From: Candidatus Nanopelagicales bacterium
Lineage (GTDB): Bacteria > Actinomycetota > Actinomycetes > S36-B12 > CAIYMF01
Direction of reading: 5' to 3'
Assembly (NCBI GenBank): GCA_017882705.1
Contig: JADGOZ010000002.1
Location: 1-39,117, forward strand
DNA: 39,117 bases
The notes below the pieces were generated by a model. That model did not search any database and was not told the origin of the DNA. It was given only the letters and a program-made list of their open reading frames with translations. The first letter of the stretch is position 1, and every line of letters begins with the position of its first letter. Made by a program: the position numbers and the translations under genes. Of this stretch, positions 8,251 through 25,565 are shown piece by piece.

Positions 8251-8251
8251 C

Positions 8252-10545: not shown

Positions 10546-11172
10546 GTGCCCGCCGACCGCCCGTCCGCCCGGACCCGCCTCGTGGTGCTCGTGTCCGGCT
10601 CGGGCACGAACCTGCAGGCCCTCCTGGACGCGTCCGCGGACCCGGCGTACCCCGCCGAGGTGGTGGCCGTCGGCGCCGACCGGCACGACATCCTCGCCCT
10701 CGAGCGCGCGGAGCGGGCCGGGGTGCCGACGTTCGTGCTGCGCGTGCCGGACTTCGCGACCCGTGACGAGTGGGATGCCGCGTTCACCGCGGCCACCGCG
10801 GTGTACGAGCCCGACCTGGTGGTGTCCGCTGGGTTCATGAAGCTCGCCGGCGCCACGTTCCTCGAGCGCTTCGACGGCCGCTACGTCAACACCCACCCCG
10901 CGTTGCTGCCGTCGTTCCCCGGCATGCACGGCGCCGCCGACGCCCTGGACTACGGCGTCAAGGTCACCGGCTGCACGCTGTTCATGGTCGACGCCGGCAT
11001 CGACACCGGCCCGATCCTCGCTCAGGCCGTGGTCGAGGTCCTCGACGACGACACCGTCGAGACCTTGCACGAACGCATCAAGGCGGCGGAGCGCGAGCTC
11101 CTCGTCGACGTCGTGGGTCGCATGGCCCGCGACGGTTGGACCGTCACCGGCAGGAAGGCCAGCATCCCGTGA
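10546..11172 (+). CDS. purN: Phosphoribosylglycinamide formyltransferase 1
   Basis: This 208-residue cytosolic enzyme of purine synthesis transfers formyl from 10-formyl-tetrahydrofolate to GAR. Motifs are [13 protein letters not shown] (phosphate-binding loop, about 13-25), [12 protein letters not shown] (about 113-124, with the catalytic Asn and His), and [11 protein letters not shown] (about 148-158, with the catalytic Asp). The length is that of bacterial PurN. The start is GTG 10546, and its stop overlaps the purH GTG start (GTGA), which implies translational coupling. It is part of the conserved perM-purN-purH block. Confidence 0.96.
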
Positions 11173-12734
11173 GCACCCGACCCGTACGCCGTGCCCTCGT
11201 CTCCGTCTACGACAAGACCGGCCTCGACGAGCTCGCCCGCGGCCTCACCGACGCCGGCATCGAGATCGTGTCGACCGGCTCGACCGCGGCGCGCATCGCG
11301 AGGCTCGGCATCCCGGTCACGCAGGTGGCCGACGTCACCGGCTTTCCGGAGACGCTCGGCGGCCGGGTCAAGACCCTGCACCCGCACGTCCATGCGGGGA
11401 TCCTCGCCGACCTGCGCCTCGAGGACCACCAGCGCCAGCTCGGCGAGCTCGGCATCGCGGCGTTCGAGCTCGTCGTCGTGAACCTCTATCCGTTCGTCGA
11501 GACCGTCGCCTCGGGCGCGACCCCGGACGAGTGCGTCGAGCAGATCGACATCGGCGGCCCGACCATGGTGCGCGCCGCGGCGAAGAACCACCCGAGCGTC
11601 GCCGTCGTGACGTCCCCGACGCAGTACGCCGACGTCCTGACCGCCGTCGCGGGCGGCGGCTTCACCCTCGAGCAGCGCCAGGCCCTCGCGGCCGCGGCGT
11701 TCGTACACACGGCGAACTACGACGTCGCGGTGGCATCCTGGCTCGGCAACGTCGTGGCCCCGACCGACGGTGGCACCGGCTTCCCGGCGTGGCTCGGCGC
11801 GACCTGGGAGCGCGCGGAGGTCCTGCGCTACGGCGAGAACCCGCACCAGAAGGCCGCGCTCTACGTCACGAACCACACGCCTAACCCCGGGCTCGCGCAG
11901 GCCGAGCAGCTGCAGGGCAAGGAGATGTCCTACAACAACTACGTCGACGCCGATGCGGCTCGTCGCGCGGCGTACGACCACGCCGAGCCCGCGGTCGCGA
12001 TCATCAAGCACGCGAACCCGTGCGGCATCGCGGTCGGCTCCGACATCGCCGATGCGCACGCGAAGGCGTTCGACACCGACCCGATCTCCGCGTTCGGCGG
12101 CGTCATCGCAGCGAACCGTCCGGTGACCGCGGCGATGGCGCAGCAGGTCGTCGACGCGTTCACCGAGGTGATCGTGGCTCCGGCCTACGACGCCGAGGCG
12201 CTGGAGATCCTCAGCGCGAAGAAGAACCTGCGCCTGCTCGTCGCGGCCGACGTCCCCGCGCACGGCGGCATCGAGATCCGCCCGGTGAGCGGCGGTCTGC
12301 TGCTGCAGGCCACCGACAAGATCGACGCCCCGGGCGACGACCCCGCGACGTGGACGCTCGCCTGCGGCGAGGCGGCCGACGCGGCGACGCTGCACGACCT
12401 CGCCTTCGCGTGGCGCGCGGTGCGCTCGGTCAAGAGCAACGCGATCCTGCTCGCGAAGGACGGCGCCGCGGTCGGCGTCGGCATGGGCCAGGTCAACCGC
12501 GTCGACTCCGCCCGCCTCGCGGTCGAGCGGGCCGGCGACGGCCGGGCGCGTGGGGCGGTCGCGGCCTCGGACGCGTTCTTCCCGTTCCCCGACGGCCTCG
12601 AGGTCCTCACCGAGGCCGGCGTGGCGGCGATCGTGCAACCCGGTGGCTCGATGCGCGACGACGAGGTCATCGCCGCGGCCACCGCCGCCGGCGTCACGAT
12701 GTACCTGACCGGGACCCGCCACTTCTTCCACTGA
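11169..12734 (+). CDS. purH: Bifunctional AICAR transformylase/IMP cyclohydrolase
   Basis: This 521-residue protein performs the last two steps to IMP. The N-terminal MGS-like cyclohydrolase domain (about 1-150) contains STGSTAARI and [16 protein letters not shown]. The C-terminal AICAR transformylase domain contains [37 protein letters not shown] (the catalytic Lys-His pair) and [10 protein letters not shown], and ends with [10 protein letters not shown], the normal PurH terminus. GTG 11169 overlaps the purN stop. The gene appears intact. A second, diverged copy of its last ~27 codons lies about 10 kb downstream at 22695-22775, suggesting that the 3' end has been an insertion site. Confidence 0.96.
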
Positions 12735-12747
12735 CGGGCACCCCGGC

Positions 12748-12770
12748 CGGCCGGGCGGCCCGCCCGGCCG
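12748..12770. terminator. Bidirectional terminator-like hairpin between purH and the aldehyde dehydrogenase
   Basis: The stem CGGCCGGGC/GCCCGGCCG (9 bp) with loop GGCCC sits 14 bp after the purH stop, between two convergent genes. There is no T tract, as is common in high-GC actinobacteria. It probably stops transcription from both sides. Confidence 0.6.
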
Positions 12771-12811
12771 AGGGCGTACGTCGGTGTCGGTCGCGCGACC
12801 CCGGCGGGCGG

Positions 12812-14272
12812 TCACCACTGGACTGCGACGTACTTCGACTCGGTGTAGTCCAGCACGCCCTCGTGGCCGCCTTCGCGGCCGATTCCGCTCTGCTTCACGC
12901 CGCCGAACGGCGCGGCCGGGTCGCTCACGAGTCCGCGGTTGAGCCCGATCATCCCTGACTCGAGCCGCTCGGAGAGGCGCAGGCCACGAGCGAGGTCCTG
13001 TGTGTAGATGTAGGCGACGAGCCCGTACTCCGAGGCGTTGGCCATCCGGACCGCCTCGTCCTCGTCGGCGAAGGTGACGATCGGTGCCACCGGACCGAAG
13101 ATCTCCTCGTCGAGGATCGGCGAGTCGGCCGCGACACCGATGAGAACGGTCGGGTCGTAGTAGTAGCCCGCACGGTCGGCACGTGCTCCGCCGAGGAGCG
13201 CGGTCGCACCCCGGTCGAGCGCGGCGCGGACGAGGCTGTCCACCTTCTCGACCGCCTCGAGGTTGACCAGCGGCCCGACCTGGACCCCGTCGTCGCACCC
13301 GGGTCCGACGGCGAGGGCCGCCATGCGGCCCGCGAGCCGACGGCCGAACTCGTCGGCCACGCCCGCCTCGACGTAGAACCGGTTGGCGGCGGTGCAGGCC
13401 TCGCCTGCGTTGCGCATCTTGGCGATCATCGCGCCGTCGAGGGCGGCGTCGAGGTCGGCGTCGGCGAACACGAGGAACGGCGCGTTGCCACCGAGCTCCA
13501 TGGACGAGTTGACGACGTGGTCGGCCGCCTCCTTGAGCAGGAGCCGCCCCACCTCGGTGGAGCCGGTGAACGACAGCTTGCGCACGCGCGGGTCCTCGAG
13601 CATGGCGGAGACGACGGCACCGGACCTGCGCGCGGGCAGGACGTTCACGACACCCGCCGGGACTCCGGCCTCCGCAAGGATCTGCGCCATCGCGAGGGCG
13701 GTCAGCGGTGTGTCGCTGGCGGGCTTGAGGATCACCGTGCAGCCGGCCGCGAGTGCCGGTCCGATCTTGCGCGTCGCCATGGCCGCGGGGAAGTTCCACG
13801 GGGTCACGAGCACGCAGATGCCCACCGGCTGGTGGAGAACGACGATCCGGTTCGCACCGGACGGGGCCGTGGACACCGACCCGGTGATCCGGACGGCCTC
13901 CTCGGAATACCAGCGGAAGAACTCCGCGGCGTAGGCCACCTCGCCACGCGCATCGGGCAGCGCCTTCCCGTTCTCCAGGGAGATGAGGTGCGCCAGGAGC
14001 TCGCTGCGCGAGGTCATGAGCTCGAAGGCCCTGCGCAGGATCTCCGCGCGGGCGCGCGGCGCGGTGCCGGCCCACGCGCCCGCCGCGGCGGCGGCGGCCT
14101 CGACCGCGGAACGCGCATCGTCGACCGTGCCGTTGGCCACCGAGGCCACCACCTCGCCCGTGGCGGGATCGCTGACGTCGAAGCGGCCGCCGTCCGACGC
14201 GGGAAGCGCGGCGCCACCGATCCAGAGGTCGGTCAGGAGACCGTTCAGCAGATCCTGGTGGTCGTGTGCCAC
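12812..14272 (-). CDS. NAD(P)-dependent aldehyde dehydrogenase (succinate-semialdehyde dehydrogenase-like)
   Basis: This 486-residue ALDH-superfamily enzyme oxidises an aldehyde to its acid. Visible motifs are VTPWNFPAAM (about 144-153), ILKPASDTPLTA (about 171-182, with the cofactor Lys), FTGSTEVGR, MELGGNAP (about 245-252, catalytic Glu) and GEACTAANRFYV (about 279-290, catalytic Cys). The closest subclass by eye is GabD/SSADH-like, but the substrate is open. The frame extends upstream through the preceding gene; GTG 14272 is preferred because AGAAGGG lies 7-8 nt before it. It is downstream of M24 copy B (23-bp gap), so both come from the operator-controlled promoter near 15600. Confidence 0.9.
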   Translation of the reverse strand: MAHDHQDLLNGLLTDLWIGGAALPASDGGRFDVSDPATGEVVASVANGTVDDARSAVEAAAAAAGAWAGTAPRARAEILRRAFELMTSRSELLAHLISLENGKALPDARGEVAYAAEFFRWYSEEAVRITGSVSTAPSGANRIVVLHQPVGICVLVTPWNFPAAMATRKIGPALAAGCTVILKPASDTPLTALAMAQILAEAGVPAGVVNVLPARRSGAVVSAMLEDPRVRKLSFTGSTEVGRLLLKEAADHVVNSSMELGGNAPFLVFADADLDAALDGAMIAKMRNAGEACTAANRFYVEAGVADEFGRRLAGRMAALAVGPGCDDGVQVGPLVNLEAVEKVDSLVRAALDRGATALLGGARADRAGYYYDPTVLIGVAADSPILDEEIFGPVAPIVTFADEDEAVRMANASEYGLVAYIYTQDLARGLRLSERLESGMIGLNRGLVSDPAAPFGGVKQSGIGREGGHEGVLDYTESKYVAVQW

Positions 14273-14295
14273 GGTCGTGCCCTTCTGTCGGAGGA

Positions 14296-15537
14296 TCAGT
14301 ACTTGTTGGCGATAACGAGATCCTGCGCGGGGTAGAGCGTGAGGATGCGCGGGCCGTCCTCGGTGACGACGACCTCCTCCTCGATGCGTGCAGCGGAGAA
14401 ACCGTCGCTCGCCGGGCAGTAGGTCTCGAGCGCGAAGACCATGCCCACCTGGAGCTCGATCGGCTCCCGCATGCTGTTGAGCCGGGAGATGATCGGCCGT
14501 TCGTGGAGCCCGAGGCCGAGCCCGTGCCCGAACTGGAGGCCGAAGGCGGCCATCTCGTTCTCGAACCCGAACTCGGTCGCCGCCGGCCACACGGCGGCGA
14601 CCTGGTCGGTGCCCACACCCGGGCGGATCATCGCGATCGAGGCGTCCATCCATTCGCGCGCCTTGGTGTAGGCGTCGCGCTGACTCGTCGTGGCGCTCCC
14701 GACGCTGAAGGTCCGGTAGTAGCAGGTCCGGTAGCCGTTGAACGAGTGGATGATGTCGAAGAAGGCCTGGTCGCCGGGTCGGATGATCCGGTCCGAGAAG
14801 TTGTGCGGGTGCGGGTTGCACCGCTCGCCGCTGACCGCGTTGATCGCCTCGACCTGGTCCGAGCCCATCTCGTAGAGCCGCTTGTTCGCCAGCGCCACGA
14901 TCTCGTTCTCGCGGATTCCGGGCTTGAGCACCTCGACGATCTCCTGGTAGACACCGTCGACCATCGCCGCAGCCTGGTTGAGCAGCACGATCTCGTCCTG
15001 CGACTTGATCTGGCGCGCGTCGAGCATCAGCTGCTGGGCGTCGACGACGGTGAGCCCTTGTCGTTGCATCTCGAACAGGAACGGCGGCTCGACGATGTCG
15101 ACCCCGACCGGGGCGTCGGCGACGCCCGCATCCTCGAGCAGGCCCTTGATCTGCCGTACGGCGTCGACCATGAGACCCGCAGAGGGCGAGATCGCTCCGC
15201 GCAGGCCCAGCATGCCGGCGTGGCAGTTCTCCGGCTCCAGCCAGGGGCTGTAGAGACGGTGGTGGCGCGCCGCGGACCCGAAGTCCCACAGCATCGGCTC
15301 GCCGCCGCGCGTCAGGAGTGCGTATCTCGTCATCTTGTCGCCGAGGGCGCCGCCGATCCACGTCTGGGTCGTGTAGCGGATGTTGTAGAAGTCGAAGAGG
15401 AGGAACGCGCCGCACTCGCTCGAGTCGAGGGCTGCTCGGGCCCGCGCGATCCGATAGTCGCGGAGCCGGGCGAAGTTGACCCGCTCCTCGAAGTCGACGG
15501 CCATGTGGCCGGGAGCGTGGAGCGGTCCGACGACCAT
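14296..15537 (-). CDS. Atypical M24-family (creatinase/aminopeptidase P fold) protein, copy B
   Basis: This 413-residue protein is a paralogue of the one at 2034-3410, with roughly half of the residues identical by eye along the full length. The putative active-site residues are Asp261 (FFDIIHSF), Cys272 in place of the usual second Asp (GYRTCYYRTF), His338 (GHGLG), Glu371 (ALETY) and Glu386 (RIEEE). Unlike copy A it keeps the second family His (HERPI). The same Asp-to-Cys change in both copies indicates a conserved subfamily, not decay. ATG 15537 is chosen over the GTG five codons earlier because GAGGAGA lies about 7 nt before it. It is followed by the aldehyde dehydrogenase and preceded by a LacI-type operator. 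Confidence 0.85.
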   Translation of the reverse strand: MVVGPLHAPGHMAVDFEERVNFARLRDYRIARARAALDSSECGAFLLFDFYNIRYTTQTWIGGALGDKMTRYALLTRGGEPMLWDFGSAARHHRLYSPWLEPENCHAGMLGLRGAISPSAGLMVDAVRQIKGLLEDAGVADAPVGVDIVEPPFLFEMQRQGLTVVDAQQLMLDARQIKSQDEIVLLNQAAAMVDGVYQEIVEVLKPGIRENEIVALANKRLYEMGSDQVEAINAVSGERCNPHPHNFSDRIIRPGDQAFFDIIHSFNGYRTCYYRTFSVGSATTSQRDAYTKAREWMDASIAMIRPGVGTDQVAAVWPAATEFGFENEMAAFGLQFGHGLGLGLHERPIISRLNSMREPIELQVGMVFALETYCPASDGFSAARIEEEVVVTEDGPRILTLYPAQDLVIANKY

Positions 15538-15575
15538 GTCGATTCTCCTCACTGCCTGCTGAACGAGTCAGGAGA

Positions 15576-15589
15576 CGCAATCGTTTGCG
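15576..15589. promoter_or_regulatory. LacI-family operator, site A
   Basis: CGCAATCGTTTGCG is a near-perfect 14-bp palindrome with a central CG, the usual shape of LacI-family operators. It starts 3 nt after the -10 box of the minus-strand promoter, covering the start of transcription. It matches site B at 16883-16896 in 12 of 14 positions. The LacI gene is next to both. Confidence 0.7.
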
Positions 15590-15592
15590 AGC

Positions 15593-15621
15593 AATCTAAG
15601 AGCGGACGTGGGCCGCGTCAA
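15593..15621 (-). promoter_or_regulatory. Promoter of the M24 copy B-aldehyde dehydrogenase operon
   Basis: Read on the minus strand: -35 TTGACG (15621-15616), a 17-bp spacer, and -10 TAGATT (15598-15593). Both hexamers and the spacing fit the main actinobacterial sigma factor. The start of transcription would fall inside operator site A, so repression by steric block is likely. Confidence 0.7.
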
Positions 15622-15689
15622 GCAGTCGGAGAGGGTGATAGCGCACGGTGGGGCGGCAGCCGGGGTGTGCCGGAGGAAGCCAGCGGGGT

Positions 15690-16748
15690 TCAGGTTCGGC
15701 GGGAGCGGGAGCGGGAGCGGGAGCGCTTCGGGGCGGCCGCGGTGGAACCCCGGACGACGAGGTCGACGCCGAGCAGGGTGCGGGTGGGGGCGTCCTGGCG
15801 ACCCTCGGCGTCGAGCTCGGTCATGAGGAGGTCCGCGGCGAGCGCTCCCATGCGTTGGAGCGGCAGTCGGACCGTCGTCAGGGCCGGCTGCAACCGCCCG
15901 ACGAACGGCATGTCGTTGAAGCCGACGACGGAGACGTCCTCGGGACAGGCATAGCCGGCATCGCTGAGCGCGTCGAGCGCCCCGAGCGCGATGAGGTCGT
16001 TGCCGGCGACGACCGCGGTGAACGGCGTACGAGCCGCGAGAACCTTCTCCATGGCCGTTCGGCCGTGCGCCTCGGAGTAGCTCAGGCAGACCGAGACGCG
16101 GGCGTCCCCGTTGCCGATGCCGAACTCCTTCGCCGCCGCGCGGAAGGCGCGCGCGCGGTCGCGACCGGTCGAGACGTTCTGGGGTCCCGCCAGGTGCACG
16201 ATCGACCGGTGGCCCAGACCTACCAAGTGCTGCACGGAAAGACGGACGCCGGCCTGGTCGTCGCCGGCCACGTAGGGCCACCGCCCGCCCGAGGCGCTGC
16301 GATTGGTGAGCACGACCGGGACACCCGCCTCGGCGAGGTCGGTCAGCAGAGGGTCGTCCCACAGCGCCGTTGCGATGATGAACCCGTCGACCCCTCTGCC
16401 GAGGAGCGACTCGATCTGGCGCCGCTCTCGTTCCCTGTCGTTGTCCGTGTCTGTCAGCAGGACGGTGTAGCCGGCCGAGGTGAGCACGTGCTCAGCGCCG
16501 CGGACTATCGGGGGGAAGAGCGGGTTCGTGATGTCCGGGACGACGATGCCGACGAGGTGCGACCGCGCCGTCCGCAGAGCTCGCGCCTGGGCGTTCGGCA
16601 CGTAGCCCAGCCGTTGTGCCGCACGCACGACACGGTCGACGGTCTCGGCGCTGACCTGACCGCGCTGGTCGGGGTTGAGCGCACGGCTGGCCGTCCCGGG
16701 GTGCACCTCGGCGGCGCGCGCTACGTCGGCGAGCTTCACCTTGGCCAC
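15690..16748 (-). CDS. LacI-family transcriptional regulator
   Basis: This 352-residue regulator has an N-terminal helix-turn-helix (KLADVARAAEVHPGTASRALN, residues 5-25) and hinge region, then a periplasmic-binding-protein-like sensor domain (about 60-335) with GIVVPDITNPLFPPIVRGAE and the typical VSVVGFNDMPF near 275. It likely binds a sugar-like or other small ligand and represses the two neighbouring operons through the palindromes at 15576-15589 and 16883-16896. GTG 16748 is the likely start because a promoter ends 7 nt before it, giving a leaderless mRNA. The C-terminus is an odd Arg-Ser tail (RSRSRSRSRR) encoded by four GGGAGC units on the plus strand. Confidence 0.9.
   Translation of the reverse strand: MAKVKLADVARAAEVHPGTASRALNPDQRGQVSAETVDRVVRAAQRLGYVPNAQARALRTARSHLVGIVVPDITNPLFPPIVRGAEHVLTSAGYTVLLTDTDNDRERERRQIESLLGRGVDGFIIATALWDDPLLTDLAEAGVPVVLTNRSASGGRWPYVAGDDQAGVRLSVQHLVGLGHRSIVHLAGPQNVSTGRDRARAFRAAAKEFGIGNGDARVSVCLSYSEAHGRTAMEKVLAARTPFTAVVAGNDLIALGALDALSDAGYACPEDVSVVGFNDMPFVGRLQPALTTVRLPLQRMGALAADLLMTELDAEGRQDAPTRTLLGVDLVVRGSTAAAPKRSRSRSRSRRT
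15701..15724. repeat. Hexanucleotide repeat (GGGAGC)x4
   Basis: Four perfect tandem units of 6 bp lie within the extreme 3' end of the LacI gene. Because the unit is a multiple of three, gain or loss would only change the number of Arg-Ser pairs in the tail and would not shift the frame. Confidence 0.85.
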
Positions 16749-16755
16749 GTGCCGA

Positions 16756-16784
16756 AGGATAGGGGTGCCGCCGGGTGGCCACAA
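16756..16784 (-). promoter_or_regulatory. Leaderless-type promoter of the lacI-family gene
   Basis: On the minus strand: -35 TTGTGG (16784-16779), a 17-bp spacer, -10 TATCCT (16761-16756), then 7 nt to GTG 16748. This geometry places the transcription start at the start codon, a common actinobacterial arrangement. No copy of the 14-bp operator overlaps it, so autoregulation is not evident. Confidence 0.6.
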
Positions 16785-16850
16785 CGTGACCCGCGCGGAC
16801 GCCACCGGGGGGACGTCGACCGTGCTTGCTGAGTCGTGACCTTCGAGTCC

Positions 16851-16879
16851 TTGACAGCAGGTGATCGAGGGTAGAGATT
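16851..16879 (+). promoter_or_regulatory. Promoter of the Liv-type importer operon
   Basis: -35 TTGACA (16851-16856), a 17-bp spacer, -10 GAGATT (16874-16879), then 3 nt to operator site B. Apart from the weak first -10 base, this repeats the geometry of the minus-strand promoter at 15593-15621. Confidence 0.62.
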
Positions 16880-16882
16880 CAC

Positions 16883-16896
16883 CACAATCGGTTGCG
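16883..16896. promoter_or_regulatory. LacI-family operator, site B
   Basis: CACAATCGGTTGCG shares 12 of 14 bases and the central CG with site A and starts 3 nt after the -10 box, the same offset as site A. The predicted regulator is the LacI protein encoded between the two sites. Confidence 0.68.
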
Positions 16897-16902
16897 GTCT
16901 TC

Positions 16903-16944
16903 GACGAAGCAACTGTCCAAGAAGACGAAGCAACTGTCCAAGAA
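16903..16944. repeat. Perfect 21-bp tandem duplication in the importer leader
   Basis: Two identical head-to-tail 21-bp units (16903-16923 and 16924-16944), each containing GAAGCAACTGTCCAAGAA, lie between operator site B and the binding-protein gene. They would be in the 5' untranslated RNA. They may be a recent slippage duplication or a paired protein- or RNA-binding site. Confidence 0.85.
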
Positions 16945-17013
16945 CACGTTCGACCCCCTGCGCACCGGGTGCGCTGCGGGGAGCAGTCCCCCCGACCGGC
17001 AAAGGAGCTGGCG

Positions 17014-18291
17014 ATGTCAAAGGCCAATCGGTGGCGACGCAGTGCGATGGTCGCGGCCACGAGTGCGGCAGTGCTGCTGCTCGCGAGCGCGTGCGCTGGG
17101 ACCGCCTCCAGCACGGCGACGGGCGGCGCTGGATCGAGCAGCGGTTCGCCTGCCCCGAGCAGCACCGCCCCGCTGGTCATCGGGGCGTCCGTCTCGCTGA
17201 CCGGCGACTTCGCCGACTCGGGCAAGGCGGTCAAGGCCGGTTACGAGCTCTGGGCCGACGAGGTGAACAAGAAGGGCGGCATCCTCGGCCGCCAGGTGCA
17301 GATGAAGATCGTCGACGACACCTCGAGCCCGACGCAGGTCGTGACGAACTACCAGAACCTCATCACCCAGGACAAGGTCGACCTCGTGTTCGGCCCCTTC
17401 TCCAGTCTCCTGACGATCCCGGCCTCGCAGGTCGCCAAGCGCTACGGCTACGCCTTCCTCGAGCCGGCCGGTGGCGGTCCCAAGGTGTTCGCCCAGAAGC
17501 TCGACAACCTGTTCTTCGTGCAGCCCGCACCGGTCGTCAAGTCGGGCGACGTGTTCGCCGACTGGGTGCTCTCGCTGCCCGCGGCCGACCAGCCGAAGAC
17601 GGCGGCGTACGCCGAGCTCGACGATCCCTTCTCCGCACCCATCGCCGAGAACATCCGGGCCAGGTTCGAGGCCGCGGGGATCAAGACCGTCTACCAGCAG
17701 GTCTACCCCGCGGAGACGCGTGACCTCTCGCCGATCATGACCAAGGTGGCGGCGGCCAACCCCGACGTCCTCGTGAGCGGCACGCAGAGCGAGGACGCCT
17801 ACTCGCAGGTGAAGTCGCTCGTCCAGCTGAAGTTCAGCCCCAAGTTCATGTACATGTCGAACGGTGCCAACTCGCCGGTCGAATTCCCCAGCAAGGTCGG
17901 CGCCGCCAACGTCAACGGCATCATGTCCGCCGCGGACTGGTACCCCGGATCGCCGGCTCCCACGAGCCCGGCGTTCGTCGCGGCCTACACCGCGAAGTAC
18001 GGCGGCAGCGAGACCGACATCGACCCGTCGAGCGCGGAGGCGTTCTCCGCCGGTCAGCTGCTCGAGGCCGTGGCTGCCAAGACCGGCAAGATCGACAACG
18101 CCACGATCATCAGCAGCCTGCACCAGGGCTCCTGGCCGACCCTGGTCGGGAACCTGAGCTGGGACGCGATCGGGCAGCCGACGGGCAGCTTCTCCCTGAT
18201 CCAGTGGATCAACCAGAAGCTCGTCCCGGTCTACCCGGCTGACGTCTCGAAGGCAACGCCCGTGTACCCGAAGCCCAACTGGGGCGGGTGA
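17014..18291 (+). CDS. Branched-chain-amino-acid-type ABC transporter solute-binding lipoprotein
   Basis: This 425-residue protein has an N-terminal signal peptide with a lipobox ending in LASAC (Cys27), a Ser/Gly/Thr/Ala-rich linker (about 28-52), and a type I periplasmic-binding fold (peripla_BP_6). Markers are IGASVSLTGDFADSGKAVKAGYELW, VNKKGGILGRQV and LVFGPFSS. It is anchored outside the membrane and delivers its ligand to the LivHM permeases encoded next. Members of this family bind branched amino acids, amides, urea or aromatic acids, so the ligand is not certain. The frame is open from 16861, but ATG 17014 has AAAGGAG about 8 nt upstream and is followed directly by the signal peptide. 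Confidence 0.9.
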   Translation: MSKANRWRRSAMVAATSAAVLLLASACAGTASSTATGGAGSSSGSPAPSSTAPLVIGASVSLTGDFADSGKAVKAGYELWADEVNKKGGILGRQVQMKIVDDTSSPTQVVTNYQNLITQDKVDLVFGPFSSLLTIPASQVAKRYGYAFLEPAGGGPKVFAQKLDNLFFVQPAPVVKSGDVFADWVLSLPAADQPKTAAYAELDDPFSAPIAENIRARFEAAGIKTVYQQVYPAETRDLSPIMTKVAAANPDVLVSGTQSEDAYSQVKSLVQLKFSPKFMYMSNGANSPVEFPSKVGAANVNGIMSAADWYPGSPAPTSPAFVAAYTAKYGGSETDIDPSSAEAFSAGQLLEAVAAKTGKIDNATIISSLHQGSWPTLVGNLSWDAIGQPTGSFSLIQWINQKLVPVYPADVSKATPVYPKPNWGG

Positions 18292-19178
18292 CCGGGTCGG
18301 TGCACGCGCTGATCCAGGGAGTGGTGCTGGGCATCCTCACGGGCGGTGTCTATGCCCTGATGGCGTCTGGTCAGACGCTCATCTTCGGCATCATGAAGGT
18401 CGTCAACCTCGCGCAAGGCGCCTTGGTCATCCTCGCGGCGTACCTCTCGTACACGCTCTTCACGTCGTTCGGCCTCGACCCGCTGCTGACGATCCCTCTC
18501 ACGACCGTGATCATGTTCGGTCTGGGGGTCGTGATCCAGCTCGTGTTCCTGCGACCGCTCAAGCGCGAGGACTCGGCGCAGCTGAGCCTGCTCGTGACGT
18601 TCGCCGTAGCCCTGCTGCTCGAGGGGTTCATGAGCGTCGTGTGGAAGACCACGTACCGCAGCACGAACACGGACTACGCCAACTCGAGCTGGACCTTCTG
18701 GGGCATCCAGTTCACGGTGGTCCGGGTCGTCGCGTTCGTGCTCTCCCTGGTCGCGCTCGGGCTGCTGTTCCTGCTGCTCAACCGCACCAAGTTCGGCCGC
18801 GCCGTACGGGCGACGGTTCAGAACCCGATGTCGGCGGAGCTGCTGGGCGTCGAGTCGAAGCGGGTCGCCGCGCTGGGCTTCGGCCTGGGCGCGGCGACCG
18901 CCGCGGCCGCTGGCTCGGTGTACGGCCTGCTCTATCCGTTCAACTCCGGCAGTCACTACGACCTGATCTCCGAGCTCCTGTCGATCGTGGTGCTCGGCGG
19001 CCTGGGCAGCGTGGGTGGCGCGGTCATCGCGGCGCTCATCGTGTCGACGTCGTCGGCCGTCGTGGCGACGGTCTTCTCGCCGACGTGGTCGAGCTTCACC
19101 TTCTTCGTGATCCTGATCCTCGTCCTGCTCGTACGTCCGCAGGGCTTGTTCGGGACAGTCGAGCGCGGTGCCCTGTGA
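18288..19178 (+). CDS. Branched-chain-amino-acid-type ABC permease (LivH-like)
   Basis: This 296-residue inner-membrane permease has about eight hydrophobic segments. Family marks include GGVYALMASGQTLIFGIMKVVNLAQGAL near the N-terminus, typical of LivH, and VVLGGLGSVGGAVIAALIV near 240, the loop that contacts the ATPase. The GTG start overlaps the stop of the binding-protein gene (GTGA). It pairs with the LivM-like permease next to it to form the channel. Confidence 0.92.
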   Translation: MTGSVHALIQGVVLGILTGGVYALMASGQTLIFGIMKVVNLAQGALVILAAYLSYTLFTSFGLDPLLTIPLTTVIMFGLGVVIQLVFLRPLKREDSAQLSLLVTFAVALLLEGFMSVVWKTTYRSTNTDYANSSWTFWGIQFTVVRVVAFVLSLVALGLLFLLLNRTKFGRAVRATVQNPMSAELLGVESKRVAALGFGLGAATAAAAGSVYGLLYPFNSGSHYDLISELLSIVVLGGLGSVGGAVIAALIVSTSSAVVATVFSPTWSSFTFFVILILVLLVRPQGLFGTVERGAL

Positions 19179-20224
19179 GCATCCGTTCCCTGGTGCGGGG
19201 CGGCGTCTTCGTCGCAGCACTGATGGCTCTGCCGCTCCTCGGCTTCGAGCACTGGGTGCTCAACCTCATGATCTTCACCCTGATGTACGCCGCGATGTCC
19301 AGCGCCTGGAACCTCGTCGGAGGCTTCGCGGGCTACCCGTCCCTCGGGCACGCGGCATTCTTCGGCCTCGGTGCGTACTTCGTCGGGCTCTGGTTCCAGC
19401 ACCACGCGGTGGTCACGGGATACGAGCCGTTCCTGGTCCTGCCGATCGCCGGCCTCATCGCCGCGGTCGTCGGCTTCCCGATCGCCTGGATCGCGATGCG
19501 CACGCGGGCCGACGTGTTCGCGATCGTCACGATCACCCTGCTCTTCGTCGCCCAGACGCTCGCCTTCAACCTCGACAGCCTGACCGGGGGCGCGCAGGGG
19601 CTGGCGATGCCGACGCCGCCGTTCGAGCTCGCCAGGTTCGAGTGGCCGTTCTACTACGCGATGCTCTGGATCCTTCTCGCCTCGATGGGCATCACCTACC
19701 TGTCGATGCGGAGCAAGGTCGGGCTCTCGCTCGACGCGATCCGGGCCGATGAGGACAAGGCGCTCGGCGTCGGCGTCCACGTGCAGGGCGTCAAGGTGCT
19801 CTCGTTCTCGATCAGCGTCGCCCTCGTCGCCATGGCCGGCGGCGTCTGGGCCTACTACGAGACCTTCACCTACCCGCAGTTCGCGTTCGACCCGATCATC
19901 ACGATCGGCATGGTCCTCATGTGCTTCCTGGGCGGGCGCGGAACGTTGTGGGGCCCGGTGATCGGTGCCTTCATCCTCGTGCCCGGTCAGCAGTACCTCG
20001 CCTACCGGCTCGGCGGCAGCCAGTTCTACCTGATCGCGTACGCCGGGGTGTTCCTCCTCATCATGCTGCTGATGCCGCGAGGCATCCTGCCGACCATTGC
20101 CGACCGCGTGCGCCGCCGCCGCGCGATCGCCGCGTCGTCCGAAGGACCACCGCCTGCCGACGCGTCACCACCGACGGCCGGCCCCGGCTCGAACGTGCCC
20201 GTCCCCTCGGGAGGTGCGGCATGA
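19175..20224 (+). CDS. Branched-chain-amino-acid-type ABC permease (LivM-like)
   Basis: This 349-residue membrane protein has eight to ten hydrophobic segments. Diagnostic stretches are SSAWNLVGGFAGYPSLGHAAFFGLGAY (about 42-68), typical of LivM, and MVLMCFLGGRGTLWGPVIGAF near 245, the coupling loop. The C-terminal ~30 residues are a Pro/Ser/Gly-rich cytoplasmic tail. GTG 19175 overlaps the livH-like stop, although the frame is open upstream. It forms the second half of the channel. Confidence 0.92.
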   Translation: MSIRSLVRGGVFVAALMALPLLGFEHWVLNLMIFTLMYAAMSSAWNLVGGFAGYPSLGHAAFFGLGAYFVGLWFQHHAVVTGYEPFLVLPIAGLIAAVVGFPIAWIAMRTRADVFAIVTITLLFVAQTLAFNLDSLTGGAQGLAMPTPPFELARFEWPFYYAMLWILLASMGITYLSMRSKVGLSLDAIRADEDKALGVGVHVQGVKVLSFSISVALVAMAGGVWAYYETFTYPQFAFDPIITIGMVLMCFLGGRGTLWGPVIGAFILVPGQQYLAYRLGGSQFYLIAYAGVFLLIMLLMPRGILPTIADRVRRRRAIAASSEGPPPADASPPTAGPGSNVPVPSGGAA

Positions 20225-20952
20225 CCGCCCTGCTCGAGATCGTTGGTGCCCGTAAGGCATTCGGCGGTGTCCGTGCCGTCGACGACTGCTCCCTCACCGT
20301 CGAGGAGGGGAGCATCACCGCACTCATCGGGCCCAACGGCTCCGGGAAGACCACGCTGTTCAACCTGATCACCGGTTACCTCAAGGCCGACGGCGGCGAG
20401 TTCCGGTTCCGTGGACGGGACGTCACGGGCAGCGACCCGGGCCGGCTCTACCGGCAGGGACTGACCCGGACCTTCCAGCAGGCGCGGGTGTTCCCGCACA
20501 TGACCGTGACCGAGAACCTGGTGGTCGCTGGTGGCTACAGCTGGCGGGACCTGCTGGTCCCACGAGTGCTGGGCCGCGACCGCTCGCGCGCAGACGTGCT
20601 GCTGGAGGAGTTCCGGATGACGCACGTCGCCGAGCTGCCGGCGTCCGAGCTCTCCTACGGGCAGCGCAAGCTGCTCGAGTTCGCCGCCGTGCTGATGAGC
20701 GAACCGCGCCTGGTGCTGCTCGACGAACCGACAGCGGGCGTGAATCCGGTGATGATCGACACGATGGAACGGCACATCCGCGAGCGCCACGCCGCGGGTG
20801 TCACCTTCCTCGTCGTGGAGCACGACATGCAGTTCGTCATGCGGCTCTGCGACCCCGTCGTCGTGCTCGACAACGGCAAGGAGATCTTCTCCGGACCACC
20901 GAGCGAGGTCCAGCAGAACCCGTTGGTCCTCGACGCCTACCTGGGGACATGA
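20221..20952 (+). CDS. ABC transporter ATP-binding protein (LivG-like)
   Basis: This 243-residue ATPase has Walker A GPNGSGKTT (about 38-46), Q-loop QQAR, the LivG-type signature LSYGQRKLLEF (Tyr replacing the first Gly of LSGGQ, normal in this family), Walker B LVLLDEPTAGVNP and H-switch VEHDM. ATG 20221 overlaps the livM-like stop (ATGA). It should pair with the LivF-like ATPase next to it, which in this sequence is interrupted by a stop codon. Confidence 0.93.
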   Translation: MTALLEIVGARKAFGGVRAVDDCSLTVEEGSITALIGPNGSGKTTLFNLITGYLKADGGEFRFRGRDVTGSDPGRLYRQGLTRTFQQARVFPHMTVTENLVVAGGYSWRDLLVPRVLGRDRSRADVLLEEFRMTHVAELPASELSYGQRKLLEFAAVLMSEPRLVLLDEPTAGVNPVMIDTMERHIRERHAAGVTFLVVEHDMQFVMRLCDPVVVLDNGKEIFSGPPSEVQQNPLVLDAYLGT

Positions 20953-20953
20953 G

Positions 20954-21685
20954 ATGAGCGCGATCGTCCGCATCGAGGGCGTCGTCGCCGGGTACGGCGC
21001 CGGCGACATCCTCAAGGGGGTCGACCTCGAGGTCTAGCCCGGCACCGTCACGTGCCTCATCGGCCCGAACGGTGCGGGGAAGTCGACCGTGCTCAAGACG
21101 GTCAGCGGCCTGCTCAGGCCCACGGCGGGCAAGGTCTTCCTCGAGGACCAGGAGATCAACCGGCTGGCGCCGAAGGCTCGGTTGCTGCTCGGCATCGTCC
21201 ATGTCCCGCAGGAGCGGAGCCTGTTCCCGAACATGACGGTGCTCGACAACCTGCTCATGGGCGGCTACGCGATCAAGGACCAGTCGCTGGTCCGGGCTCG
21301 TGTCACCGAGGCGATGGACGCCTTCCCGATCTGCCGTGACCGCACCCACGCGCACGCAGGCTCCCTCTCCGGCGGCGAGCAGAAACAGGTGGAGCTCGCC
21401 CGCACTCTCGTGCTGGACCCGAAGGTCATCCTGCTCGACGAGCCGTCGATCGGTCTCGACCCGAGGTCCCGCGCGCTCGTGTTCGCGAGCATCACGCGGC
21501 TCGCCTCAACGGGGCGCACCGTCCTGCTCGTCGAGCAGAACGCGCGGTCCGGGCTGGCAGTCGCCGACCAGGGAGCCGTCCTCGAGTCGGGTCGGGTCCG
21601 ACTACGAGCGTCGGGACGCGAGCTGCTCGACGACCCCGAGGTCGCGCGGCTCTACCTCGGCAGCTCGTCCCTCCCGCAGATCTGA
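20954..21685 (+). pseudogene. LivF-like ABC ATP-binding protein with an in-frame amber codon
   Basis: The full frame (244 codons) encodes a LivF-like ATPase but contains TAG at codon 28 (21035-21037). The context is LKGVDLEV-stop-PGTVTCLIGPNGAGKST; family members usually have Glu or another charged residue there, so a single G-to-T change from GAG explains it. Everything else is intact and in the same frame: Walker A GPNGAGKST, signature LSGGEQKQVELA, Walker B VILLDEPSIGLDP and H-loop VEQNA. Restart at GTG 21089 would lose Walker A and give no working ATPase. Unless the stop is misread, read through, or a sequencing error, the importer lacks one ATPase. The gene starts 1 nt after the livG-like stop. 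Confidence 0.85.
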
Positions 21686-21728
21686 TCTCGTCACCCCTCG
21701 TACCGATCCCACAGAGAAGAGACAACTC

Positions 21729-22661
21729 ATGACCGCGAGAGAGAACCCGAGGATCGGGTGGGTCGGGACCGGACGGATGGGTCATGCGATGGCCGACCGG
21801 CTGCTGACCGCCGGCTGCTCCGTCCACGTCTGGAACCGGACCCGCGCCAAGGCCGAGGACCTCACCGAACACGGTGCCGTCGTCGTGGACACGGTCGCCG
21901 ACCTGGCCGGCCGTGACGTCGTGTTCACGATGGTCTCGGCTGACGCCGACCTGGAGCAGGTGGTCCTCGGCGAAGGCGGGTTGCTGCGCCAGGACGCGGT
22001 CCCGCGGATCATCGTGGACTCGAGCACCGTGTCGGCGGCGACCTCGAGCCGTGTTCGCGCCGAGGCGACCGCGCGTGGGGTCGCGTTCCTCGCGGCGCCG
22101 GTGAGCGGGAACGCCAAGGTCGTCAAGGCCGGCAAGCTCTCGATCGCCGTGTCGGGGCCGGAGGACGCCTACCTGGAGGTCCTGCCACTCCTCGCGCACA
22201 TCGGCCGCGCCGTCACGAGGGTCGGCGACGACGAGCAGGCCCGACTGGTGAAGCTCGCGCACAACATCTTCCTGGGAGTCGTGACGCAGTCGCTCGCGGA
22301 GATCGTCGTCCTGGCCGAGCGCGGCGGCGTCCCACGCAGCGCGTTCATGGAGTTCATGAACGGTTCCGTGATGGGGTCGTTGTTCACCGGGTACAAGTCC
22401 CCGGCGATCGTGAACCTCGACCTCAAACCCACCTTCACGAGCGAGCTGCTGCGCAAGGACTTCGACTACGGGCTCGCGGCCGGGCGCGAGCTCGGCGTGC
22501 CGCTCCCGCTCGCCGCGCTCACGCACCAGCTGGTCCAGGCGACGATCGGACGCGGTCACGGTGCTGAGGACTTCATCGCACTGCTCCTCGAGCAGGCGCG
22601 CAGCGCGGGCTATGAGGTCGAGCCCGAGAACATCGCCGTGCCGGACGGCTTGACGGCCTAG
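21729..22661 (+). CDS. Beta-hydroxyacid dehydrogenase (3-hydroxyisobutyrate/tartronate semialdehyde reductase family)
   Basis: This 310-residue NAD(P)-dependent enzyme has the dinucleotide fold IGWVGTGRMGHAMA (about 9-22), the substrate-binding DSSTVS (about 98-103), the APVSGN segment (about 122-127) and the catalytic Lys in VKLAHNIF (about 175-182). Family substrates include 3-hydroxyisobutyrate, tartronate semialdehyde, L-serine and sulfolactaldehyde, and the sequence does not choose between them. It lies 43 bp after livF, probably in the same operon, so it probably acts on the imported compound together with the aldehyde dehydrogenase encoded on the other side of the regulator. Confidence 0.87.
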   Translation: MTARENPRIGWVGTGRMGHAMADRLLTAGCSVHVWNRTRAKAEDLTEHGAVVVDTVADLAGRDVVFTMVSADADLEQVVLGEGGLLRQDAVPRIIVDSSTVSAATSSRVRAEATARGVAFLAAPVSGNAKVVKAGKLSIAVSGPEDAYLEVLPLLAHIGRAVTRVGDDEQARLVKLAHNIFLGVVTQSLAEIVVLAERGGVPRSAFMEFMNGSVMGSLFTGYKSPAIVNLDLKPTFTSELLRKDFDYGLAAGRELGVPLPLAALTHQLVQATIGRGHGAEDFIALLLEQARSAGYEVEPENIAVPDGLTA

Positions 22662-22694
22662 TCGCAGCGCGCTGCATCCGGTCGCGCGGGCGCC

Positions 22695-22775
22695 TTGCGA
22701 GAGGAGGATGACGTGGCCGGTGCCGACTGCGGCCGGGTCACGACTTACGTGACCGGGACCCGCCACCTGTTCCGC
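22695..22775 (+). pseudogene. Remnant of a purH 3' end
   Basis: Translated on the plus strand, these 27 codons align without gaps with the last 27 residues of PurH in this window. The remnant reads LREEDD-VAGADC-GR-VTTYVTGTRHLFR, where PurH reads [27 protein letters not shown]: 12 identities plus several conservative changes. The last 39 nt (22737-22775) match 12693-12731 in 33 positions, including a perfect 17-mer (22750-22766 and 12706-12722). No stop codon follows at the expected place. It overlaps the C-terminal codons of the XRE gene on the other strand. Chance cannot be fully excluded, but the match to a gene terminus is unlikely to be random. Confidence 0.65.
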
Positions 22776-23508
22776 TGGCGGCGTGTCCGCCGGGACTGCT
22801 GCCGCTGACGACGGTGGCTCCGCCCACGGCGGCGGCCTCCGTCTGCGGGGTCCACGAGGGCAGCCCGTCCGGCCGCGCCGACGTCAGGTGCGCCGTCTCC
22901 TGAAGGATGATCCAGACGGCGCGCACGTCCTCGTGGCCGTTGTTCTCCAGCCGGTGCGGCTCGGACGCATCGAACGTGACCGTGTCGCCCGCGCGCAGCG
23001 TCCAGGTGTCGAACTTGTGGTGGAAGGTCAGCTCGCCGGACTCGATGTAGGCGCACTCGAAGCCCTCGTGCTGCGAGAACTTGCCCGACTGCCCCGAGCT
23101 GCTCCCGGGGCGGTAGGTCACGAGGATGAACTCCAGGCCGGGCGGTGCGCTGCTCGACAGCTTCTCCCAGGTGACCCCAGACTCCAGCTCGATCGTGACC
23201 CGCTCGCCGGGGCTCAGAACGGGAACGTCGGGGGAGGTCCGGCGTGACGACGGGCTGGTCGAGGAGCGTCGTTGCGACGCTGACCGCGCATGCGGCTGCT
23301 CGGGCAACGCGTCGTCGAAGAGGTCGTCGAGGGTGATGCCGAGCTCGTTCACCAGGCGGTAGAGCGTCGTCACGGACGCGCGGCACCGCCCGTTCTCGAC
23401 CTGCGACAGCATGCTTGCGGACACGCCGACCCGGCTGCCGAGCTCGCGCAGCGTCAGCCCCCGCGCCTGCCTCAGCTCTCGAATGCGCGCTCCAGCGGCG
23501 GCTTCCAC
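22738..23508 (-). CDS. XRE-family regulator with C-terminal cupin domain
   Basis: This 256-residue protein has a helix-turn-helix at residues 8-62 (LRELGSRVGVSASMLSQVENGRCRASVTTLYRL), a Ser/Arg-rich linker (about 72-95) and a cupin sensor (about 105-200, with QHEGFECAYIESGEL, LRAGDTVTFDASEPHRLEN). Such proteins sense a small ligand in the cupin and control nearby catabolic genes. GTG 23508 has GGAGG about 10 nt upstream. It is divergent from the SDR-bicupin pair, its likely target. The last ~50 residues are a low-complexity Gly/Ser tail, and the final codons overlap the purH remnant on the other strand, so the original C-terminus may have been altered. Confidence 0.88.
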   Translation of the reverse strand: MEAAAGARIRELRQARGLTLRELGSRVGVSASMLSQVENGRCRASVTTLYRLVNELGITLDDLFDDALPEQPHARSASQRRSSTSPSSRRTSPDVPVLSPGERVTIELESGVTWEKLSSSAPPGLEFILVTYRPGSSSGQSGKFSQHEGFECAYIESGELTFHHKFDTWTLRAGDTVTFDASEPHRLENNGHEDVRAVWIILQETAHLTSARPDGLPSWTPQTEAAAVGGATVVSGSSPGGHAASGTGGGSRSRKS

Positions 23509-23707: not shown

Positions 23708-23737
23708 TTGACGGGATATTTGATGCTGCTTTACAGT
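23708..23737 (+). promoter_or_regulatory. Promoter of the SDR-bicupin operon
   Basis: -35 TTGACG (23708-23713), an 18-bp spacer, -10 TACAGT (23732-23737). Transcription would start near 23744, leaving a leader of about 23 nt that contains the AGGAGG ribosome-binding site before GTG 23767. Confidence 0.6.
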
Positions 23738-23766
23738 CCGGGTCAGCATTCCGACAGGAGGACGGC

Positions 23767-24471
23767 GTGAGCCAGGAGCCACAGGACGGAACGGGTGTCG
23801 TGATCGGCGGGACCTCGGGTCTCGGCCGCGAGATCGCGGCTCAGATGGTGCAGCGCGGGCTGAAGGTCGTCATCACCGGCCGCGACGCCGAGCGCGCCGC
23901 ACGCATCGCCGCGGAGATCGGACCCGGTGTCACCGGGCTGGCGCTCGATCTCGCCGCCCCCGAGACGATCGCGTCCGCGCTCGAAGGGATCGAGAGAGTC
24001 GACCAGCTGGTCATCGCCGCCATCGAGCGCGACTCCAACGGCGTCAAGAACTACGACGTCGCCCGGGCTACTCGCCTCGCCGTCCTCAAGCTCGTGGGCT
24101 ACACCGAGGTCGTGCACGCGCTGCACGAGCGCCTCACGCCCGGCGCTTCGGTCGTGCTGTTCGGTGGTCTCGCGATGATGCGCCCCTATCCCGGGTCGAC
24201 CACCGTCACGACCGTCAACGGCGGGATCAGCTCGATGGTCCGCACGCTGGCCTCCGAGCTCGCCCCGGTGCGCATCAACGCCCTGCACCCGGGCATCGTG
24301 GGAGACAGCCCCGAGTGGGCGGACAAGAACCTCGAGATGGTGGTGGCGAGAACGCCTATCGGCCGCACGGTCACGATGGCGGAGATCGTCGACGCGACGT
24401 TCTTCCTGCTCGAGAACGGCGGCGTCAACGGCGTCAACCTCATGGTCGACGGCGGCACGCTCGTACGCTGA
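23767..24471 (+). CDS. Short-chain dehydrogenase/reductase lacking the usual catalytic residues (Lin1944-like)
   Basis: This 234-residue Rossmann-fold protein has the cofactor motif GGTSGLGREIA (about 14-24) and the C-terminal ELAPVRINALHPGIVGD segment. The expected Ser-Tyr-x-x-x-Lys catalytic set is missing: the Ser strand reads VVLFGGLAMMRP, and where YxxxK should be the sequence reads VTTVN before GGISSMVRTLASELAP. The same losses define the Lin1944-like SDR group, whose function is unknown. The start is GTG 23767 with AGGAGG about 6 nt upstream. It is followed after 79 bp by a bicupin gene. It may bind NAD(P) without the standard chemistry or use other residues. Confidence 0.85.
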   Translation: MSQEPQDGTGVVIGGTSGLGREIAAQMVQRGLKVVITGRDAERAARIAAEIGPGVTGLALDLAAPETIASALEGIERVDQLVIAAIERDSNGVKNYDVARATRLAVLKLVGYTEVVHALHERLTPGASVVLFGGLAMMRPYPGSTTVTTVNGGISSMVRTLASELAPVRINALHPGIVGDSPEWADKNLEMVVARTPIGRTVTMAEIVDATFFLLENGGVNGVNLMVDGGTLVR

Positions 24472-24550
24472 GCGCGGCGCCCAGTGAGGTGCGCGACCCG
24501 CGCACTGGCCAGACCCAGGCGGCCCCGGTGGTCGCGCGAAGGAGTACGCG

Positions 24551-25477
24551 ATGTACCACGTGACGCGGATCGACGAGACCGAGAACCAGGTGCCGGCCGC
24601 GTACGTCGACCGGTCGCGCGGCTACTCTCGCCAGCTGCTCGTCGGCTCCTCTACCGGGTCCCCCCACATGGGCCTCTTCGTGTGCCACCTCGAGCCCAGC
24701 GGCCACATCGAGGCGGTCGTGCACTCGTTCGAGGTGAGCCTCTACGTGCTCAGTGGCGACCTCGTGGTGTCGATGCTGGGCGAGTCGATCCGGCTGCCCA
24801 CCGACCACTGCCTCAACGTGCCGGTGGGCGTCGCGTACACGGTGCGTCCCTCCGGGGGACCGGTCTCGTGGCTCCAGATGAGCGCCCCGGCGCCGTTCGA
24901 GGACGGCCGCCGCATTGACACCTTCTTCACCGGTGAGCAGCTCGACCTCGCGGACGCGCTTGCTCCCGACCTGCGGGATCCCAGGAACCGCAACGCGTTC
25001 CGATTCGACCCCTCGTCGATGGACCTCGGCAACCTCGCTGGCATCGCCGGCGGCCAGGCGGTCAACGCGCCCACGGTGTCGGCGAGCATGGCCACCGCCC
25101 TGCTGGCCTACTCCGGCATCGGCGTCCGCATGCTCATCGACCAGCGCATGGGCGCGCAGCTGCACACCATGTTCATGGTGCAGTACCAGCCGACCGCGAT
25201 CGCGCACCCGCACGATCACCCGTTCGAGGAGGCGTACATCTTCGTCGAGGGCGAGGTGCACGCCCTCGTGGAGGGCGACGAGCTCGTCCTGCGCCCCGGT
25301 GACGTGCTGTGGGCGGGAGTGGGCGCCGACCACGGCTTCCACAACCGCGGTGACGGCCTGGTGCGCTGGATCGAGACGCAGGCGCCGCAGCCTCCGGCGC
25401 AGCACTCCTACCGGTTCAACCGCGATTGGGAGTACCTCGAGGAGATCCTGGGCAACGGCGAGGCCGACGCCCGGTAG
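24551..25477 (+). CDS. Bicupin protein, (S)-ureidoglycine aminohydrolase (AllE)-like
   Basis: This 308-residue protein has two cupin domains, at about 30-120 and 190-290. The C-terminal cupin keeps a metal site: HPHDHPFEEAY (about 217-227, His and Glu ligands) and a late His in GVGADHGFHNRG (about 258-269). The N-terminal cupin has lost most ligands, as in AllE/YlbA-type enzymes, which release ammonia from (S)-ureidoglycine and use Mn2+. No other allantoin genes are present in the window, so the actual substrate may be a different amide, ureide or keto compound. ATG 24551 follows AAGGAG by about 6 nt. It is in one operon with the SDR and shares a terminator with the convergent amidohydrolase gene. 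Confidence 0.75.
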   Translation: MYHVTRIDETENQVPAAYVDRSRGYSRQLLVGSSTGSPHMGLFVCHLEPSGHIEAVVHSFEVSLYVLSGDLVVSMLGESIRLPTDHCLNVPVGVAYTVRPSGGPVSWLQMSAPAPFEDGRRIDTFFTGEQLDLADALAPDLRDPRNRNAFRFDPSSMDLGNLAGIAGGQAVNAPTVSASMATALLAYSGIGVRMLIDQRMGAQLHTMFMVQYQPTAIAHPHDHPFEEAYIFVEGEVHALVEGDELVLRPGDVLWAGVGADHGFHNRGDGLVRWIETQAPQPPAQHSYRFNRDWEYLEEILGNGEADAR

Positions 25478-25511
25478 GACCACCGGCTCGAGCCGCCGGA
25501 GGGCAGAGGAA

Positions 25512-25551
25512 AGCAGGAGGGGCCGGGGCGTCAGCCCCGGCCCCTCCTGCT
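25512..25551. terminator. Strong bidirectional terminator
   Basis: A perfect 17-bp stem (25512-25528 with 25535-25551), beginning AGCAGGAGGGGCC on the left arm, with loop CGTCAG lies between two convergent genes. Each stop codon is within about 40 bp. It is the strongest hairpin noticed in the window and should end transcription in both directions. Confidence 0.85.
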
Positions 25552-25565
25552 CCGCGTGCGCGAGC

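Follow-up and report, generated by a model that had tools for sequence, protein, structure and literature searches.

The 3' end of purH occurs twice in a stretch of 39,117 nucleotides (nt) from Candidatus Nanopelagicales bacterium (assembly GCA_017882705.1, contig JADGOZ010000002.1), here called the window, which is contig C39 in full (assembly in 194 contigs, 90.9% complete; genome 3.56 Mb). Besides the end of the intact gene, a decayed copy of it, the remnant, lies about 10 kb downstream. In most genomes of the genus, purH is followed by ydcZ, a gene for a transporter of the DMT_YdcZ family, and the remnant is probably the ydcZ-side copy of a former overlap of the two genes, retained when island DNA separated them. 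Two observations lead to this reading: the ydcZ gene of relatives reads in the +1 frame into the purH end, where a candidate ATT start is found, and in one related genome, G004, the leader in front of ydcZ aligns with the purH end in register.

The duplicated purH end

An earlier note on the window had reported that the bases 12693-12731 recur at 22737-22775, and both this repeat (33 of 39 bases identical) and the perfect 17-mer within it (12706-12722 and 22750-22766) are present as described. The 17-mer occurs at two places only in the 3.56-Mb genome, both of them in the window, with two further places at one mismatch. Without gaps, the match spans 12645-12737 and 22689-22781, and with gaps (12621-12737 and 22661-22781) it begins at 22661, so that its start coincides with the stop codon of the hydroxyacid dehydrogenase gene. 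In a ranking of the direct self-matches of the window, which left inverted matches out, the repeat comes first at scores of +1/-2 and second at +1/-1, where it is outranked by a pair within two ABC-ATPase genes near 35266 and 36248. With gaps it scores 45, whereas 686 controls, made from 343 other 220-base pieces of the window on both strands, reach 29.5 at most.

Used as a DNA query against the 17 genomes of the family, its own included, the remnant finds its own purH with an E value of 2e-10, and the next best among the matches listed has 1.3e-3; in the remnant search, 40 candidates only were scored in G002, G003, G004, and G015. The similarity to PurH at the protein level and in the same frame, which had also been pointed out before, holds as well (E 3.4e-4, 43% over 30 residues). 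The duplication is confirmed as real and lies far above chance. It is unevenly kept, with 38 of 45 bases identical in the core (12693-12737) and 25 of 41 in the part upstream (12652-12692; Fisher p 0.016), so that preservation is best around the candidate ydcZ start.

Gene order after purH in related genomes

The comparison within the genus covers ten other genomes (G001-G010), all of which have purH. In eight of them (G001, G002, and G005-G010) the next gene on the same strand is ydcZ, whose homology starts 34 to 308 nt past the last codon of purH; G003 has one gene between the two, and G004 has an island. In the window, this usual neighbour of purH is found at 31191, and the extra DNA therefore measures about 18.4 kb (12735-31190), not 10 kb, with the remnant in its middle. 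The earlier note had taken the DNA between the two copies for the whole inserted unit, and this bracket turns out to hold about half of the extra DNA; deleting 12735-22775 alone would leave an order unlike that of the relatives. It had also looked to relatives in which purH is joined directly to the DNA right of 22775, and none of the ten has this junction, whereas eight join purH to the DNA right of 31190. What stands of the proposed insertion at purH is that extra DNA parts the gene from its usual neighbour and that one copy of the purH end marks the old border. Other islands flanked by the same 17-mer, suggested as a further sign, are absent elsewhere in the own genome.

Beyond the genus, a contig search gave 80 loci from other actinobacteria, the best PurH being 74% identical and thus below the range of the genus (79-88%). 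A search of plasmid records gave one weak match only, covering 14% of the query, to a cupin protein.

In G003 (contig C12), a palindrome with arms CGCTCTGGATGGGTGA stands on either side of the single gene between purH and ydcZ (L019 9074-9125 and 9908-9959). Its 16-mer has 57 copies in G003 and none in G000, G002, or G004, like a species-specific repetitive extragenic palindromic (REP) element.

A likely intermediate state in G004

Contig C43 of G004 carries the genes for LacI, livKHMGF, and the hydroxyacid dehydrogenase in DNA 83% identical to that of the window, and by the gene calls its ydcZ begins 73 nt past the dehydrogenase stop. The purH gene is on contig C13, whose last 127 bases are also the first 127 of C43, on the same strand, and a frame of 466 codons runs across the join; we take its product, by its sequence, to be an acyltransferase-like E2 protein. 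The order in G004 is purH, six predicted genes, LacI, livKHMGF, dehydrogenase, leader, and ydcZ, and the second block of the window, which lies right of the remnant, is absent.

Compared in register, the 24 bases of this leader through the ATG of ydcZ agree with ten purH ends at 12 to 16 positions, with the best matches to G005 and G007 (16 positions) and 14 positions to its own purH. In this register, the ATG of ydcZ falls exactly on the ATT site of the relatives, and a TGA falls exactly on the purH stop. Against the purH end of G002, a score of at least 15 is reached at 10 of 47,904 positions in 24 kb of G004, both strands and the leader itself included. The leader of G004 and the remnant of the window share a GTG that is absent at this site from all 16 purH genes read. 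The PurH tree pairs the window with G004 (85/91, on a branch that is not starred), and G004 is probably the sister genome of the window's.

A candidate AUU start of ydcZ inside purH

Seven genomes of the family have ydcZ in the +1 frame out of purH (G001, G002, G005, G006, G007, G013, and G014), and in all of them the fourth-last codon of purH is CAT, giving C-ATT-TCT-TCC-ACT. CAC takes its place in the nine remaining purH genes that were read in the family (those of the window, G003, G004, G008-G012, and G016). Among the other histidine codons of the seven genes, CAT makes up 0 of 10, 0 of 13, and 0 of 9 in G002, G005, and G013, 1 of 10-12 in G006, G007, and G014, and 4 of 13 in G001. A glycine codon, GGG or GGA, ends 7 nt before the ATT and is like a Shine-Dalgarno (SD) sequence.

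An order-wide search found ydcZ in 132 of 166 genomes. The upstream junction was read in 109 of these, comprising 98 purH-ydcZ junctions, ten loci without purH in reach (C43 of G004 counted among them), and one ydcZ that could not be aligned. The ydcZ frame is open at +1 through the purH stop in 40 of the 98 junctions, and is closed today in the window and in G004. Thirty-four of the open junctions have CAT (ATT at -11) and six have CAC, all six of the latter with an ATG or GTG at +4 to +13. Where an open junction lacks ATG, GTG, and TTG from -8 to +20, the codon is CAT, hence ATT, in 25 of 25 cases from five families, against 25 CAT and 48 CAC in the remaining 73 junctions (Fisher p 1.2e-9, with relatives treated as independent). 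With family f7 left out, CAT is found in 22 of 22 versus 12 of 56 (p 3.9e-11, relatives again treated as independent). The glycine codon is GGA or GGG in 28 of the 33 glycine-bearing ATT junctions versus 13 of 52 others, and CAT at this site (25 of 25) compares with 33 of 109 at other histidine codons in the same purH stretches, being thus kept against composition.

Four of these 25 junctions (G014, G021, G046, and G136), all with ATT at -11, are free of ATG, GTG, and TTG over the whole stretch from the in-frame stop upstream to the point where homology begins; in the remaining 21, a canonical start codon occurs somewhere within it. As such a codon further off could serve in these 21, translation of ydcZ from an AUU in the last codons of purH is rated as likely only.

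In G011 and G012 (L224 and L218), which belong to another genus, the sole canonical start near ydcZ is a TTG formed by the last codon of purH and its stop (CAT TGA). This would be a second solution to the same overlap.

Origin of the duplicated end

The splitting of an overlapping pair could have proceeded as follows. The purH and ydcZ genes would ancestrally have overlapped, with the last ~30 nt of purH also holding the ribosome-binding site and AUU start of ydcZ. In the common ancestor of the window genome and G004, catabolic DNA carrying the LacI, Liv, and hydroxyacid dehydrogenase genes would have come between the two in a single event, leaving a second purH 3' end of at least ~117 bp; one copy would have stayed as the end of purH, and the other as the leader of ydcZ, where selection for ydcZ may have kept it. 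The route of entry may have been one crossover with a circular DNA that contained a purH end, an integrase since lost, or a duplication followed by insertion. In G004 the leader would persist with its AUU changed to AUG. In the window lineage, the second block (about 22782-31190) would have landed later between leader and ydcZ. As ydcZ is now 8.4 kb away, the remnant can no longer serve it and would be a functionless scar; translation of ydcZ itself probably begins at a GTG. The better kept start region fits a leader that was useful for a time, given that four-fold sites of the window and G004 are 50-67% identical.

The same geometry could come from site-specific integration at the purH 3' end, with the integrase since lost and the remnant as a displaced attachment (att) site, which would likewise end up before ydcZ. 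A gene 3' end does stand at both sides of a block that relatives lack, and the end of the target gene is repeated directly, as in genomic islands of this kind. This origin is nevertheless unlikely. The earlier note had seen no integrase, and none of the 16 genes called in the extra DNA (12 of them scanned against Pfam) was recognised as a recombinase, all being metabolic, transport, or regulator genes. There is no third 17-mer in the genome, a search of it with the purH end gives purH and the remnant only, and the ten same-genus loci have no second copy of their own purH end within the 1.3-16 kb read past purH (best score 22). Moreover, the extra DNA runs on past the right border of the bracket, and no empty site matches both borders, eight of the ten relatives joining purH to 31191 and none to 22776. 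We think that the duplicated end is better explained as the ydcZ-side half of an overlapping gene pair than as an att site.

Homologous exchange, by which a purH end and catabolic genes would have come from a relative through one crossover in purH, would give the same end product, the remnant being purH sequence of donor or recipient with no role for the ydcZ start, and catabolic blocks do move around this locus in the genus. It is quite unlikely, as the remnant is nearest to its own purH (20 of 24 bases in register versus 15-18 for nine relatives) and no relative's purH is among the matches listed to E 0.1, with 40 candidates only scored in G002, G003, G004, and G015; a relative's purH was rejected as the source of the remnant on these grounds. 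Exchange would also leave unexplained why the ydcZ start region is the best kept part and why the ATG of G004 lies in register. Chance similarity in GC-rich DNA has in its favour that, by an estimate from simple composition, it is not unusual for 39 kb of such DNA to hold exact 17-mer pairs. As an account of the extended match it is hardly credible, and it was rejected on the rank among direct self-matches (best at +1/-2), the 686 controls, the E value in the genome, and the count of the 17-mer, which is found twice in 3.56 Mb and both times here.

Several points weigh against the splitting of an overlapping pair. G004 and the window genome are both many-contig assemblies, the 127-nt link between the G004 contigs could run through a repeat, and the leader of G004 is short and only moderately significant. 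The sister relation of the two genomes comes from one of three trees, that of ydcZ leaving it open and that of purN separating them. The remnant has CAC and not CAT at the start site, which means that the proposed AUU is already lost there, and a neutral scar of that age should, by a rough estimate, be more decayed than 77%, pointing either to past constraint on the core or to a younger event. The split pair of G003 carries no purH scrap. No decayed scrap was found either by a 12-residue peptide scan of nine genomes of the order with ydcZ but without purH in reach (G017, G024, G029, G032, G068, G112, G138, G149, and G153): seven gave nothing, G112 gave two matches of 5/12, and G017 gave a well kept purH end (10/12) at the far edge of the locus. 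Some of these nine genomes hold two ydcZ-like genes, so that the locus read may be the wrong one. A kept copy of the overlap is therefore not established as a rule. As for the codon pattern, a correction for kinship on the PurH tree (97 rows, one short row dropped, supported branches only) left seven independent pairs, with a mean of 3.1 in agreement, 0 opposed, and 3.9 without difference (median p 0.25, not significant), in a test of little power; without f7, five pairs gave a median p of 0.5. The direction of the pattern is consistent after this correction.

Gene content of the extra DNA and its surroundings

The features discussed are collected in Table 1. Pfam confirms the content that the earlier note had given for the bracketed segment, with aldehyde dehydrogenase, M24 protein, LacI, Liv binding protein, and dehydrogenase. 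The set is not fixed, G004 sharing only LacI, livKHMGF, and the hydroxyacid dehydrogenase and having other genes in place of the aldehyde dehydrogenase and M24 genes. The four Liv permease and ATPase genes, which are outside the Pfam scan, were assigned by match or position in G004, and the products of livK, livH, livM, and livF are 83-91% identical to those of G004. The livF gene of the window (20954-21685) has an in-frame TAG before the Walker A region, where the G004 copy is open, and is either a broken gene or an assembly error. For both M24 proteins of the window (2034-3410 and 14296-15537) the best NCBIfam model is the dimethylsulfoniopropionate (DMSP) lyase DddP, with 114 and 99 bits versus a cut-off of 600, and both probably have an activity other than that of DddP.

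In the second block, the homology of the XRE-cupin regulator to its G003 relative ends near 22797; beyond this point the frame crosses the remnant in antisense and reaches a stop at 22738, and the border of the block is thus placed at about 22782-22797. Its borders show no short repeats or target-site duplications of weight (local scores 5-10), and a search for a ydcZ 5' fragment right of the remnant found nothing (local score 12.5). The block as such is present in none of the 16 other genomes of the family. Pieces of it are found upstream of DUF6350-purN-purH in G007, on another contig in G003, and as one 113-base match in G002.

The region upstream of DUF6350-purN-purH (window 365-9097; L017 1-5127; L164; L019) is another catabolic region whose content varies within the genus. 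What are presumably E1-, E2-, VOC-, and GntR-like genes stand upstream of purH in G003, and downstream and mirrored in G004 (VOC also as a weak match). PurN (window 10546-11172) comes in two divergent types that cut across the genus; its tree places the window with G006, G002, G007, and G014 (100/99) and G004 with G001 (83/89), which suggests that the purN next to purH may have been replaced.

Table 1. Features of the purH-ydcZ region of the window
Feature	Position	Strand	Basis or remark
purH, intact, parent of the remnant	11169..12734	+	79-88% identity to PurH of 10 same-genus genomes
purH 3' segment present twice	12621..12737	+	Gapped local alignment to 22661-22781, score 45
Perfect 17-mer	12706..12722	+	Spans -15 to +2 of the candidate ydcZ start site in relatives
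Site of the candidate ATT start of relatives' ydcZ	12721..12723	+	ACT in the purH of the window
Aldehyde dehydrogenase, first block	12812..14272	-	Pfam Aldedh E 1.7e-160
M24-family metallopeptidase-like protein, copy B, first block	14296..15537	-	Pfam Peptidase_M24
LacI-family regulator, first block, common to G004	15690..16748	-	Pfam; 82% to G004 C43
Liv-type ABC importer livKHMGF, first block, common to G004	17047..21685	+	livK by Pfam; livG by gene calls in both genomes
3-hydroxyisobutyrate dehydrogenase-like oxidoreductase, first block, common to G004	21729..22661	+	Pfam; 85% to G004; start deduced from frame
Displaced, decayed copy of the purH 3' end (putative former ydcZ leader)	22661..22781	+	Alignment, genome search, 17-mer
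XRE-cupin regulator, second block	22738..23508	-	Pfam; alignment to G003 homologue
Putative former ydcZ start position in the remnant	22765..22767	+	ACC; register taken from relatives' alignment
SDR (+), cupin protein (+), amidohydrolase (-), second block	23716..27023	mixed	Pfam; homologous block elsewhere in G003 and G007
Rbs-type ABC importer (binding protein, ATPase, permease), second block	27554..31138	+	Pfam
DMT_YdcZ transporter gene, usual purH neighbour in relatives	31191..32195	+	Pfam DMT_YdcZ E 5.7e-43

Significance and comparison with known systems

The window offers a concrete case in which a duplicated gene end next to an insertion is probably a by-product of the splitting of an overlapping pair and not the footprint of an integrase; a related species (G004) likely preserves an intermediate state. 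More interesting than the scrap itself is another by-product, the conserved candidate AUU start inside purH, which would be missed by gene finders limited to ATG, GTG, and TTG. A wider proposal, which is less likely than not, can be put forward tentatively. Throughout the order, ydcZ might start at an AUU in purH with its SD sequence in a purH glycine codon, tying the transporter to purine synthesis and perhaps to the levels of initiation factor 3 (IF3); split pairs could keep the overlap on both sides as a scar, the freed start being upgraded to AUG or GTG, and some att-like repeats could be scars of this kind. Among the titles and beginnings of abstracts listed in a literature search, there is no account of purH as an integration site, of a split overlap with duplication, of truncated gene copies at islands like the present one, or of such an AUU start; for purH as an integration site, the match obtained concerns a Prochlorococcus siphovirus.

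Some genomic islands are integrated in the 3' ends of genes, which include tRNA genes and some protein genes. The present case resembles them in that the gene end is found twice, metabolic genes are inserted between the copies, and the target gene is intact. It differs from them in that no recombinase is seen, the extra DNA extends beyond the border, the content is variable, and the duplicated end is likely also the start region of the next gene.

Known non-canonical starts include, in an excerpt of one account, those of infC (ATT in E. coli and ATC in Streptomyces) and sigR (GTC), and according to the same excerpt very few have been characterised by experiment (PMC5472188). The candidate ydcZ start is like these in being a rare start codon that gene finders misplace, ATT being a known initiator; it is unlike them in that it is deduced solely from sequence, and in that it belongs to a transporter gene joined to purH. 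Overlapping coupled gene pairs of prokaryotes, as presented in the portions seen of two further accounts (PMC6728339, PMC10666635), share with purH and ydcZ a short overlap on the same strand in which the downstream frame begins inside the upstream gene. Instead of an ATGA or TGATG junction, the overlap here would measure ~14 nt with a putative AUU start, and the splitting of the pair would have left the overlap present on either side.

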